This document shows positions 13,994-54,761 of a DNA stretch of 64,000 nt, in pieces. The DNA is from an uncultured Clostridia bacterium. Its GTDB lineage: Bacteria; Bacillota; Clostridia; Christensenellales; Borkfalkiaceae. The position numbers were made by a program, and so were the translations under genes. Location: NCBI GenBank assembly GCA_944368775.1, contig CALVXB010000008.1:1-64000 (forward strand). Direction: 5' to 3'. The stretch's first letter is position 1; every line of letters begins with the position of its first letter. The notes beneath the pieces were generated by a model. That model saw nothing but the letters and a program-made list of their open reading frames with translations, was not told the origin of the DNA and did no database searches.

Positions 13994-14109
13994 AAAGTCG
14001 TAACAGAGGGCGGCATTTTTTGCGCTTTCTCTATATATAGTGAAAGAGGAGGTCTACCAAGAGACAAAATTATACGTAAAGTGGGAGTAAAGCAATGTAT
14101 TTGAATTGA

Positions 14110-14231
14110 TTTGATTGATTTGAAAAGGAGAAAAGTAAAATGACAAAGTGGAAAAAATTGGCAGCGGTTGCGCTGTGTGTGTTGCTGATGGCTTGCATGC
14201 CCCTGCTGTTGTTTGGGTGCAGTACTGTGGA
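14110..14231 (+). repeat. Leader/signal-peptide cassette, copy 1
   Basis: A 122-bp segment repeated at 15371-15492 with two mismatches. It contains an AT-rich leader (TTTGATTGATTTG), the SD, the start codon and codons for the lipoprotein signal through the lipobox Cys. Confidence 0.9.
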
Positions 14232-15336
14232 CGAATTGCAGCGGCAGGTGGAGGAGATGACGCGGCAATATGAGCAGCTTTTGGCAGAAAACGAGCGGCT
14301 TGCCGGGGAGACGGAGCAGCTGCACGGCGATTTCGCCGCATTGCAGGATGCGTTTATGCAGCTTGCGGCGGAGAACACCCTCACGCAAGACGAGCTCATC
14401 GACGCCGAGTATAAATTCAATGCGCTCGTCGGCACAGATTGGTCCGGGGAGAACGCGACGTATGCGCTCGACCGCCTCTATATCCGCGTAGGAGAAGAAT
14501 GTTTAGACAAGACGTTCGCGGCAGAAGACTTTTTGCCGGTCGAAGTTGCTGAGGTCGAACAGACCTATCGTTGCGATACGTTCGCCGAATATTTGCTCAC
14601 GCTGCATACGTCTGATTTGAAAGAGCTTATCGACGACATGACAAAGTTGTATTCCTTTGATTTTGTGGAAGAAGTGCTGTTGTATGAAAATGTGACGAGC
14701 GAATGGCAGCTCGCGGCGGATCGTGGCGGGTATTTTGTGAGCGTCAACAGCGCGCTGACAGACGGCCCGCTCACCGCGGGAGACTTTGCGCCTCTCTCCG
14801 TCTCCGAAATTATCCCCGTGGATGGCGTTCGTGTGTATTCATTAGATGAGGGAAGCATGCTGGGGCTCACGCTGCAGATCTATGTGATTATGGCGGATGG
14901 GGCGCGCGACGAGGTATTGGAAGCGCTGTTGGGGATGGAGATCGTCGACTATGCCTGGGAAAACGCGTACGATTACGAAACGCGGCAATATCCTGCGGAA
15001 GAAAAAGACCTTGAGACAATGGAGTTGGAAGAATGGCTGAAATGTACGGGCAGTCTCGACCTCGATATCGATCGTGCTTATGCTGCGCGCCTGTTTACCA
15101 TCGAAGATTTTGCGGGGTTCGCTTCCGGGGAAACGGTAACGTGGCTGTCGTATGATGCTTTCAAGAGCGGAAGTGAAGAATATTTGCATCGGTTCCGCAT
15201 CGGCACCGGCGACGACTCACTTCGCGCGCTGGAAAGGGATATGCGGATCGTTCTGCGGCTTGATTTTGTCCGCAGTTGCCGCGCCGATTTTTTGGCGACT
15301 GGGTTCCCGGGGTACCCGCTTGAGGACGGGCAATAA
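14140..15336 (+). CDS. Lipoprotein with coiled coil, unknown function
   Basis: 398 residues. Residues 1-26 are a lipoprotein signal peptide ending LLLFGC, with the modified cysteine at 27, so the protein is anchored to the outer face of the membrane. About 30-75 is a heptad-rich coiled coil (VDELQRQVEEMTRQYEQLL and onward). The remainder (about 85-398) is acidic alpha/beta sequence with no recognised motif; two halves both contain short EEW/YAARLF-type segments. AAAAGGAG precedes the ATG. Codon use is visibly less GC-rich than in neighbouring core genes. Its signal is nearly identical to that of the next gene. Function unknown. Confidence 0.8.
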   Translation: MTKWKKLAAVALCVLLMACMPLLLFGCSTVDELQRQVEEMTRQYEQLLAENERLAGETEQLHGDFAALQDAFMQLAAENTLTQDELIDAEYKFNALVGTDWSGENATYALDRLYIRVGEECLDKTFAAEDFLPVEVAEVEQTYRCDTFAEYLLTLHTSDLKELIDDMTKLYSFDFVEEVLLYENVTSEWQLAADRGGYFVSVNSALTDGPLTAGDFAPLSVSEIIPVDGVRVYSLDEGSMLGLTLQIYVIMADGARDEVLEALLGMEIVDYAWENAYDYETRQYPAEEKDLETMELEEWLKCTGSLDLDIDRAYAARLFTIEDFAGFASGETVTWLSYDAFKSGSEEYLHRFRIGTGDDSLRALERDMRIVLRLDFVRSCRADFLATGFPGYPLEDGQ

Positions 15337-15370
15337 AATGTAGTATAGATTACGAGGAAAAGGTAATGAA

Positions 15371-15492
15371 TTTGATTGATTTGAAAAGGAGGAAAGTAAA
15401 ATGACAAAGAGGAAAAAATTGGCAGCGGTTGCGCTGTGTGTGTTGCTGATGGCTTGCATGCCCCTGCTGTTGTTTGGGTGCAGTACTGTGGA
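15371..15492 (+). repeat. Leader/signal-peptide cassette, copy 2
   Basis: Second copy of 14110-14231. Identity stops abruptly four codons after the lipobox cysteine (GCSTVE/D), beyond which the two proteins are unrelated. Confidence 0.9.
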
Positions 15493-15850
15493 GGAGGAGC
15501 CGGAAGAGGATCAAACATATGATGTCGCTATCCGTATCGGATGCAGCGACGGCATGATCTATGAATTCCCCGTCGGCGAAGATGAAAAGCACGTTACCAT
15601 TCCGTACGACGGTATGGAGCGCACGTTTTGGGTGGAAAGCTACAATTTGCCCGACCATCCCCGCTATGGCGACGATTGGTTTGCCCCGAGCGGTGAAGGC
15701 GCCAATGTGTTTTCATTAAGTATAGCAGGAGATACGGGTGAGGTAGAAAGTATTTGCGATAAAGGTAATTATTGTATAAATATATATGCAGACAGCACAT
15801 CTACTCTTTGGAACGAGAGATTTGCTTGGTTATTTATAACTGTGGAATAA
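15401..15850 (+). CDS. Small lipoprotein, unknown function
   Basis: 149 residues. The signal peptide is nearly identical to that of the upstream lipoprotein (only W4R differs), with the lipid-modified cysteine at 27. The mature part (about 120 residues) is a short beta-rich domain (VAIRIGCSDGMIYEFPVGED, then EKHVTIPYDG) without a recognised family. AAAAGGAGGAAAG gives a strong SD. It is 64 bp downstream of the first lipoprotein gene with no promoter or terminator between, so probably co-transcribed. The AT-leaning codon use matches its neighbour. Confidence 0.75.
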   Translation: MTKRKKLAAVALCVLLMACMPLLLFGCSTVEEEPEEDQTYDVAIRIGCSDGMIYEFPVGEDEKHVTIPYDGMERTFWVESYNLPDHPRYGDDWFAPSGEGANVFSLSIAGDTGEVESICDKGNYCINIYADSTSTLWNERFAWLFITVE

Positions 15851-17753: not shown

Positions 17754-17897
17754 GCGCCGCCGCACAGAACGCGTCCGCCGCGCAGAACGCCGTGCGTTTG
17801 CGCGGCAATGTTGTCAGAGAGCAGTCCGCCGGCGGCCCGCAGGGGCGGCCGGCGCTTTGAAATTTTTGCCCCCGCCGCGGCGGGGGAGGAGGGAGTT

Positions 17898-18956
17898 ATG
17901 CAAACGTATGCCGAGCGCGCCGCCGCGCGCCCCCGCCCCGCCGAGCCGGTCATTTTAGGCATCGAAAGCTCGTGCGACGAAACGGCCGCCGCCGTCCTGC
18001 GCGGGCGGTCCATTTTGTCCAACGTCGTGCGCTCGTCCGCGGCAGAGCAGGCCAAGTACGGCGGCGTCGTCCCCGAGATCGCCTCCCGCGCGCACGTCGA
18101 CGTCGTCGACGAGGCGGTGCTCGCCGCCATCGCCGAGGCGGGCATCCGCAAAGAGGACATCGACGCGGTCGCCGTCACCTACGGCGCGGGGCTGCTGGGC
18201 GCGCTGCTCGTCGGCCTGTCCTTCGCCAAGTCCTTCGCCTTCGCGCTGGGCGTGCCGCTCATCGCGGTCAATCACATCCGCGGCCACATGGCGGCGGCAT
18301 ACCTCGCCGCCCCCGCCCTCGAGCCGCCCTTCATTACCCTGCTCGCGTCCGGCGGCCATACCGCCATTTTATATACGAAGTCGTACACAGAGAGCGAGAT
18401 CCTCGGCTCCACCCGAGACGACGCCGCGGGCGAGGCGTTCGATAAGGCCGCCCGCGTGCTCGGCCTGCCCTACCCGGGCGGCCCGAACGTAGAAAAGCTG
18501 GCGCGCGAGGGGCAGCCGAATATTCCCTTCCCCAAAATGTTCCGCGGCGGCGGGTACGATTTTTCGTACAGCGGCTTAAAGACGGCGGTCATCAATTACT
18601 GCCACAACTGCGCGCAAAAGGGGCAGAGCGTGCCGCGCGCGGACGTCGCTGCCTCCTTCCAGAGCGCGGCGTGCGGCGCGCTCGCCGAGCGCGCGGTGGA
18701 GGCGGCCAAGGCAAAGGGCTGCACCGTCATCGCGGCGGGCGGCGGCGTCGCTGCCAACGGCTACCTGCGCGCGCTGCTCGCCGAGCAATGCGCCGCGGCG
18801 GGCATCCGCCTCGTCCTGCCCGAAAAAAAGTACTGCACCGACAACGCCGCCATGATCGCGGCAGAAGGGCTGATGCAGTACCGCGCGGGCAACTTTTCCG
18901 ACCTCACCGTCAACGCCTGCGCCCACATCCCGCTGGGGAGGAAGGGGAAGCAATAG
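17898..18956 (+). CDS. tsaD: tRNA N6-adenosine threonylcarbamoyltransferase TsaD
   Basis: 352 residues; catalytic subunit for t6A37 formation on ANN-decoding tRNAs, with TsaB/TsaE. ASKHA fold: ILGIESSCDETAAA at the N-terminus, metal-binding HxxxH in NHIRGHMAAA, SGGHT, the STRDDAAGEAFDK loop and GGGVAANGYLR. ATG 17898 is preceded by GGGAGGAGGGAG; the upstream open frame from 17808 is not family-like. tsaB/tsaE are not nearby. A CCCCCGCC..GGCGGGG hairpin (about 17869-17886) sits just upstream. Confidence 0.95.
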   Translation: MQTYAERAAARPRPAEPVILGIESSCDETAAAVLRGRSILSNVVRSSAAEQAKYGGVVPEIASRAHVDVVDEAVLAAIAEAGIRKEDIDAVAVTYGAGLLGALLVGLSFAKSFAFALGVPLIAVNHIRGHMAAAYLAAPALEPPFITLLASGGHTAILYTKSYTESEILGSTRDDAAGEAFDKAARVLGLPYPGGPNVEKLAREGQPNIPFPKMFRGGGYDFSYSGLKTAVINYCHNCAQKGQSVPRADVAASFQSAACGALAERAVEAAKAKGCTVIAAGGGVAANGYLRALLAEQCAAAGIRLVLPEKKYCTDNAAMIAAEGLMQYRAGNFSDLTVNACAHIPLGRKGKQ

Positions 18957-18963
18957 TGGGCTC

Positions 18964-19450
18964 GCGAAATTTGTTTCGAGCTGACGAAACAAATTTCTGC
19001 GATTTGAGGGGAAACCCGAGCGGTTTTCCCCTCAGCGGCGCGCTTTTTAAGGGCACGCCTTTTTTTATGCGCGCCGCTTTCACCCCATCCGTGAGCGCTT
19101 GCGCGCAAATTGAGTGCGCTGGCGCAGAAGCGCGGTTCTGCTTGCGCGAGTAATTAAAAAAATAGGGTTCCCGAAAATCGCAGCGGTGCGAAGCGTCGCG
19201 AGATTTTTGGGAAGAGGAGGCGCCGCCGAGCAAGCCGAGCCTTTTGCTAACAGCAAAAGGCAGGCAAGCAAAGGCGAGCGACGACGAGCGCTGGCGCAAA
19301 GGCGTGGCTTTGCTTGCGCGAGTATTTTAATAAAAAATAACTCGAAAAAGCGGAAATCGCAATTTTCGCTTTTTCACAAAAAGCGGCGCAACCGCGCTGA
19401 AAAAATTTTCAAATCACACAAAAAAGGCAAAAGCGTGGTTTTGCCTTTTT
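18964..19450. repeat. Hairpin array / possible structured RNA region
   Basis: About 490 bp without a credible gene. Stems, left to right: 18966-18978/18985-18997 (13 bp), 19006-19016/19022-19033, 19034-19043/19069-19078 (10 bp around an inner AAGG/CCTT), 19124-19129/19136-19141, 19170-19181/19198-19211 (imperfect), 19239-19248/19252-19261 (10 bp), 19296-19301/19308-19313, 19344-19357/19361-19375, 19421-19432/19439-19450. A 37-bp unit is repeated (19116-19152 and 19288-19324). The last hairpin can serve as a terminator. The antisense frame at 18910-19299 has no SD. Confidence 0.7.
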
Positions 19451-19485
19451 CGAGTGTTTTGATAGTAAAAAACCGCGCATGACGG

Positions 19486-19544
19486 TATAATTTGTATTGT
19501 TCGCGGCAATAACGCTTCCGAGTTGTTTCGGAGGCGTTTTTTGT
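19486..19544 (+). promoter_or_regulatory. ywmB promoter and SD-sequestering leader hairpin
   Basis: TATAAT at 19486-19491 has no good -35. The transcript would begin near 19498 and immediately form an 11-bp hairpin (19511-19521/19528-19538) followed by T residues. The right arm contains the SD (GGAGG, 19530-19534), and the start codon follows at 19545. Confidence 0.6.
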
Positions 19545-19979
19545 ATGGTTCGCAGAGTCTTTGCAGCTTTGCTCTTGGCCGCGCTGTGCGCGGCGATGCT
19601 CGCACTTCCGCAGATGCTGCGCGGCGGACTGCTCTTCCCGGGCGCGCAGCGCTACCTCTTTTACGCGGGCGGGGCGTCCTCGCAGGCGCGCATGGTGTTC
19701 GCCTCCGCCGCCGAGGCGCCCCTCGTCCGCGCCCTGCTCGTCGGCCGCAGCGGGGAGAGCGCCTGCTACGCCGACGCGGAGGACGCCTTCGCGCTGGCCG
19801 AGCGGTACGGCGCGCGCCTGCTCTTTTGCGAGCGGGCGGGGGATGTCGTCAATTACTATTACAGCGCCCCCGCGCTGGGCGGCGGCGTGTGGCTGGAGGG
19901 GCAGCCCGTCAACTTGCACGTCGCCGTGCGCGGCCAAGGCGCCTGCATCGGCAGCCCGCTCATCTTCGGCGGCTATTGA
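19545..19979 (+). CDS. YwmB-family protein (sporulation-locus TATA-box-binding-like fold)
   Basis: 144 residues. An N-terminal hydrophobic segment (about 5-25) suggests a signal anchor. The C-terminal part (ARLLFCERAGDVVNYYYSAP, then QPVNLHVAVRGQG and IGSPLIFGGY) matches the end of YwmB proteins, normally VNLHIA..VGSPIIFGSF. In Bacillus ywmB precedes murAA-spoIID-spoIIQ; here it directly precedes spoIIQ, with murA and spoIID absent from the interval. The SD lies in a hairpin arm, so expression may be controlled at translation. Function unknown. Confidence 0.75.
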   Translation: MVRRVFAALLLAALCAAMLALPQMLRGGLLFPGAQRYLFYAGGASSQARMVFASAAEAPLVRALLVGRSGESACYADAEDAFALAERYGARLLFCERAGDVVNYYYSAPALGGGVWLEGQPVNLHVAVRGQGACIGSPLIFGGY

Positions 19980-54473: not shown

Positions 54474-54493
54474 ATAAGAAATTTATACAAACC

Positions 54494-54761
54494 GATGAGG
54501 CAGAAGAGTAACGCATCTTCGCAATTTTCAGAGAGCTTTTGGTTGGTGAAAAAAAGCAGTTGCCGATGCGCGAATGGGCTGCCGAGGGCATCTTCGAGCC
54601 TGCTTTGCAGGGGTAGCGGATGACGCGGCTCTCGCGTTACAGGGAGGGGATATAACCTTTTTCGCAAAAAAGGCGTATCTGCAACGAGGCGGCAGCTTTT
54701 TTGCCGTGAATTCGGGTGGCAACACGGTTCATTCGTCCCGAGAATGAGCCGTGTTTTTTTA
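54494..54761 (+). promoter_or_regulatory. T-box riboswitch, tryptophan specifier
   Basis: Stem I: GGCAG/CTGCC below and CGCATC/GATGCG above an internal loop with AGTA on the 5' side and GAATGGG on the 3' side. The specifier codon is TGG at 54575-54577 (Trp). The AGAGAGC motif and the GGTTGGTGA apical loop follow. The antiterminator has the T-box AATTCGGGTGGC; its bulge TGGC (54717-54720) is complementary to the GCCA end of tRNA-Trp (discriminator G). The terminator is a 13-bp stem (54722-54734/54742-54754) with seven T. Uncharged tRNA-Trp should allow read-through into the ABC importer. Confidence 0.93.

Follow-up and report, generated by a model that had tools for sequence, protein, structure and literature searches.

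The window analysed here, a 64-kb stretch of a chicken-gut bacterium's genome, carries the tsaD gene, the product of which is 88-91% identical to TsaD of named Candidatus Borkfalkia relatives; we infer that Candidatus Borkfalkia is the host genus. Upstream of tsaD, two neighboring lipoprotein-like frames share a 97.6% identical stretch (14080-14239 and 15370-15495) that spans the ribosome-binding site and the signal peptide (MTK.KKLAAVALCVLLMACMPLLLFGCSTV), after which the frames diverge. Downstream, no gene is seen from the end of tsaD at 18956 up to the ATG at 19546 that opens the following frame, so that the gene-free gap of the original prediction is borne out. Near the far end of this gap lies a terminator-like hairpin (19511-19538), with GGAGG in its 3' arm just 5' of the next gene's start codon, that is present in all 8 congeners whose compared stretch extends that far. 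This hairpin is probably the native tsaD terminator, which places the intervening hairpin array between the stop codon and the terminator; perhaps it is also a translation control.

Repeated DNA is found throughout 18960-19470. The hairpin array, originally delimited at 18964-19450, has slightly wider limits, with repeats over about 18957-19481. The three covarying hairpins of the form GCA-NNN-GCG(T/C)GG that had been noticed in it are real: the pattern GCANNNGCGYGGNNNTGC has three matches in the window, all inside the region (19124-19141, 19296-19313 and 19427-19444), against a mean of 0.19 in dinucleotide shuffles, none of 100 of which reaches three. The direct repeat that carries two of these hairpins is present as well, with a length of 47 nt (83% identity between 19116-19162 and 19288-19334) instead of 37, and further inverted repeats were recovered at 18966-18997, 19005-19034, 19344-19375 and 19409-19462.

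Comparison of the copies located behind tsaD across other species allowed the complete unit to be recognized, and all three covarying hairpins are the last hairpin, P5, of this larger element (Table 1). The element spans about 200 nt and consists of P1, P2, P3, a linker starting with TTCACC, P4, the conserved CAAATTGAGTG, P5 and an AT-rich tail. The second copy in the region contains a P1-like hairpin, an alternative middle module (19204-19287) and P5 (19288-19319) in the AAG/CTT form. Module borders recur near 18959, 19018, 19162, 19204, 19288, 19335, 19375 and 19421. The copies are mosaics in which modules occur in varying order and in both orientations, some of them truncated or reduced to isolated hairpins.

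Table 1. Features of the tsaD locus and of the hairpin array that follows it (window coordinates)
Feature	Position	Strand	Remarks
tsaD (tRNA threonylcarbamoyltransferase)	17808..18956	+	stop codon adjoined by the array
Copy 1, complete, five hairpins	about 18957..19163	+	covariance model, 213.7 bits (not an independent score, as the copy is among the 66 sequences used to build the model)
P1 hairpin, loop AGCTGA	18962..19002	+	first pair 6 nt past the tsaD stop codon
P2 hairpin, GAGGGG...CCCCTC	19006..19033	+	alignment and pairing
P3 hairpin, conserved loop AAGGGCAC	19034..19078	+	alignment and pairing
Conserved linker TTCACCCCATCCGT	19079..19092	+	variants track the P2 5' strand
P4, short hairpin GCGC-TT-GCGC, followed by conserved CAAATTGAGTG	19095..19104	+	by eye, outside the modelled pairs
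P5 hairpin, GCA-GAA-GCGCGG-TTC-TGC	19116..19147	+	AT-rich tail to 19163
Copy 2, variant	19164..19335	+	about 32 bits; absent from the training set
Copy 3, decayed, reverse	19333..19481	-	33.2 bits; P5 (-) at 19344-19375
Lone P5 hairpin, AAA/TTT form	19421..19450	+	20.2 bits
Terminator-like hairpin	19511..19538	+	kept before the next gene in congeners

Further copies, for which the original prediction had proposed searching the genome and its relatives, were found in both, which clearly contradicts its refuting condition that other copies be lacking. In the source genome, which is 95.5% complete and comprises 1.78 Mb on 22 contigs, blast gives 104 matches to the 586-bp region, and 71 elements form 43 arrays; among the 35 arrays with both flanking genes called, 22 are flanked by co-directional, 10 by convergent and 3 by divergent genes. 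Arrays are located near the ends of four contigs of this genome, designated G000 (C14, C17, C18 and C19), one of which, C17, ends in tandem 124-bp units; the assembly seems to break at such arrays, so that the copy numbers are probably underestimates. By DNA search, 31 of 36 congeners carry the repeats and the 24 genomes from other families yield no match; the covariance model identifies the element in 37 of the 40 genomes of the genus, often with at least 57 matches per congener (56 in the source genome). The three copy-free genomes are G002, G005 and G062; the copy-rich ones include G001, G009, G026, G032, G035 and G061. An order-wide search with the model yields matches in 26 of 297 genomes and 9 of 125 genera; five other families account for 9 of the 26 genomes. 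A class-wide search, run under stricter filters with few candidates scored per genome, gives matches in 4 of 391 genomes, all from the family of the host. The element has no match in plasmid and phage records and is absent from all 20 viral-contig stretches that contain a 15-base motif.

The stem covariation, which had been recommended for checking on the copies, is very strong. The full-length set of 73 hits comprises 69 distinct copies (184-259 nt), 66 of which were aligned (alignment A1); these are not independent because modules are common to several copies. In A1, standard pairing is seen in 92.9% of the 3105 stem cells, and both sides have changed in 41 of 48 pairs, compared to 71.5% and 33.4 pairs in shuffles (none of 500 as high) and to 37-54% paired cells when the partner is moved by 1-3 columns. 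The top-ranked pairs in a mutual-information scan of A1 fall in P1, P3 and P5. In 25 matches from other genera that were outside the training of the model, 94.7% of 917 cells are paired and 45 of 48 pairs show two-sided change, in an alignment fitted by the model. The 5' strand of P2 and the linker vary together in A1, and an alternative pairing between them is at most suggested: the test is equivocal, given that 93.4% of the cells are paired whereas two slid controls reach 89-91% with equal or higher covariation scores. That the linker pairs with the segment following P4 was also considered and was rejected, covariation support being absent.

Covariation of this kind had been taken, in the original prediction, to imply selection on RNA (or cruciform) structure. 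Selection on RNA acting on one strand should tolerate G.T (G.U) pairs above A.C, and the distinct stem haplotypes of A1 do not show such tolerance: excluding the poorly aligned pairs 19-38, 62-109, 64-107, 66-104 and 67-103 and three inner P5 pairs, there are 1247 Watson-Crick, 28 G.T and 29 A.C combinations, compared to 322, 29 and 5, respectively, in a comparison set of 30 tRNAs (Fisher p = 0.0007 for the mismatch balance). Equality of G.T and A.C, unlike the situation in tRNAs, makes the pairing look like one that is kept at the DNA level. With the two mismatches equally rare, compensatory change does not imply selection on RNA, and the DNA hairpin allowed for as a cruciform in the original prediction is the better fit. 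These patterns suggest that the palindromes are kept at the DNA level, via template switching or exchange of whole hairpins; template switching is reported to produce multi-base compensatory changes (PMC8794818).

A structured non-coding RNA family, that is, a 3' UTR element or a small RNA the stems of which are held by RNA selection while its copies spread by duplication, is an alternative that deserves serious attention but appears rather unlikely. Compatible with it are the strand-specific loops and linkers (AAGGGCAC, TTCACC, CAAATTGAGTG and GCGYGG) that persist beyond the genus, in further genera and families of the order, the location 3' of the stop codon and 5' of a conserved terminator-like hairpin, the joint variation of P2 and the linker, and the excess of G.T over A.C (22 vs 8) in the alignment of copies from other genera (A2), to which less weight is given than to A1 because model fitting favors G.T. 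Against it, in addition to the mismatch balance in A1, even nearest stem haplotypes differ mostly by two-sided changes (60 vs 25 one-sided in P1, and 46 vs 26 in P3), both strands of 12 folded copies are about equally stable, and the copies occur in both orientations, truncated, or as isolated hairpins. A search of the region against Rfam 15 at gathering thresholds gives no match, and at lax thresholds the matches are scattered and score far below gathering. Elsewhere in the window, a T-box leader (54486-54743) scores above its Rfam gathering threshold. The cause of the covariation matters wherever covariation is taken as proof of a functional RNA, and this element, with its many copies, the stems of which change freely, is a good system for separating RNA selection from DNA template switching.

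At the prmA-ftsY locus, the nearest relative (G018) has an uninterrupted prmA end and represents an empty site relative to the source genome, in which a copy lies inside the last prmA codons and the prmA frame closes at a TGA of the element; a clean target-site duplication is absent at this site. The element provides new C-terminal residues to prmA and, apparently, to mnmG in the source genome. Matches to the model are located directly 3' of prmA in 3 of 30 loci (G000, G017 and G013). Of 30 loci compared behind tsaD, 6 (G000, G007, G013, G016, G017 and G061) have a copy that begins -1 to 3 nt from the last position of the stop codon, and the tsaD spacers of the three nearest relatives are short and lack the element. 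Thus, the mobile REP-like reading that had been offered among the original possibilities gains support from dispersed, multicopy, extragenic and palindromic repeats, from mosaic arrays and from the empty site of a close relative; to judge from the comparison of genomes, the element is apparently mobile.

Placement at gene ends was analyzed for 51 hits in the source genome above 75 bits and 88 congener hits, with overlapping loci omitted and with ends dropped that had less than 330 nt of flank or a neighbor within 160 nt. Taking as stop codons those of long reading frames, which are crude gene calls that include some spurious frames, 46 of 112 P1 ends have a facing stop at a distance of -5 to +15 nt, and in 38 more the stop is inside the element, compared to 128 and 137, respectively, of 1260 random intergenic points. 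The clear genes among the stop-adjacent frames include prmA and mnmG (named by eye). For P5, 12 of 79 ends are near a facing stop and 7 have the stop inside the element, the distance to the gene being inflated on this side because other repeat modules often follow P5. The stop-facing and start-facing sides of the arrays in the source genome reveal no orientation bias (Fisher p of 0.17, 0.56 and 1.0 at three distance limits). A role as a three-frame stop cassette was rejected: all frames are stopped within 60 nt in 13 of 69 copies, below the level in shuffles (36%).

Candidate mobilizers were sought in the 40 genomes of the genus. The reverse transcriptase of group II introns or retroelements (PF00078; 4 genomes) and the IS110 transposase (PF02371; 6 genomes) were rejected, both being absent from the source genome. 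The Y1 transposase (PF01797) is found in 23 genomes. Its presence, together with hairpins at both ends, the absence of terminal inverted repeats and a REP-like context, is consistent with an IS200/IS605-type PATE or REPIN, in which P1 would be the left-end and P5 the right-end hairpin and a Y1 (HUH) transposase or RAYT would act in trans to move them. This possibility appears improbable, however, given that the only Y1 matches in the source genome are two truncated IS200-type TnpA copies (L096 on contig C16 and L097 on contig C10), on contigs where the region has no blast match, and that PF01797 is not detected in the six copy-rich genomes named above, all of them incomplete, whereas it is present in the three copy-free ones. 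A chance cluster of intrinsic terminators and unrelated hairpins, which the 11 terminator-like sites in 901 bases (vs 2.5 in shuffles) might bring to mind, is extremely improbable and is already refuted by the dispersed copies, given the whole-element homology across dozens of copies and species and the separate conserved terminator-like hairpin further downstream.

Taken together, the region is best explained as an array of a dispersed, apparently non-autonomous mobile element of about 200 nt, with five palindromes and conserved loops and linkers. Copies would spread as single-stranded or cruciform DNA hairpins by means of a recombinase that is supplied in trans and recognizes hairpin shape and loop, with insertion just past stop codons being either directed or tolerated. 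The near-perfect stems would result mainly from DNA-level processes, namely arm-to-arm template switching and exchange of whole hairpin modules, to which selection for hairpin shape could add. For this explanation as a whole, including the mode of spread, the placement at stop codons and the upkeep of stems at the DNA level, we estimate a probability of about 0.6. A secondary effect on the 3' end of the mRNA, by analogy with some E. coli REPs, is plausible. A bolder and rather doubtful extension is an order-wide mobile class with exchange at the level of the single hairpin, so that whole palindromes are replaced and loops persist, and with an enzyme that reads shape (other than Y1, reverse transcriptase or IS110) positioning P1 ends at stops, giving genes new 3' ends and sometimes C-terminal residues. 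The placement at stop codons and the enzyme behind the movement are direct, testable questions.

Several known systems resemble the element in part. Integron attC sites are shape-conserved, sequence-variable palindromes that follow gene stops; the element shares this character but is dispersed in both orientations and does not form one cassette array. BOX and ERIC are modular or structured intergenic repeats. The element is similar to these, as well as to the stem-loop sequence families, from which it differs by the absence of an Rfam match, the five-hairpin order and the placement at stop codons. Stem-loop sequence families are described as structured intergenic repeats (PMC2267715).

The REP/BIME/REPIN repeats of Proteobacteria are portrayed in one report as many-copy extragenic palindromes that occur in clusters and inverted pairs, with RAYTs as the proposed movers of REPINs (PMC3116915); certain E. 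coli REPs are reported to lie within 15 nt past stop codons and to affect translation (PMC12306157). The element likewise consists of extragenic multi-copy palindromes with clusters and inverted pairs. It differs in that REPs are linked to RAYTs and have a unit given as 20-40 bp (PMC3733652), whereas the element comprises five hairpins in 184-259 nt, lacks the GTAG/CGTC tag at the ends of its consensus, and is not tracked or accompanied by a RAYT or Y1 gene in these incomplete genomes. A survey of human microbiomes lists 250 palindromic candidate structured RNAs (PMC8040213), and the motif of the element may be among them. A literature search of titles and abstract openings retrieved no description of the element or of such a family in the order, and within that scope the element looks like a previously undescribed REP/bcr1-like palindrome family. 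In size and copy number, bcr1 is the closest, a likeness drawn from descriptions: the bcr repeats of the Bacillus cereus group are characterized as being 100-400 bp long, with up to 130 copies, confined to one bacterial group and endowed with mobile features (PMC6542083). The element is similarly group-specific, structured and dispersed, with signs of mobility; bcr repeats carry TTTAT motifs and have one host group, whereas the element occurs in several families with its structure kept and its sequence largely changed. As far as those titles and abstract openings go, it extends the REP/bcr1 kind by a large family with several hairpins per unit, from an order in which none was found described.
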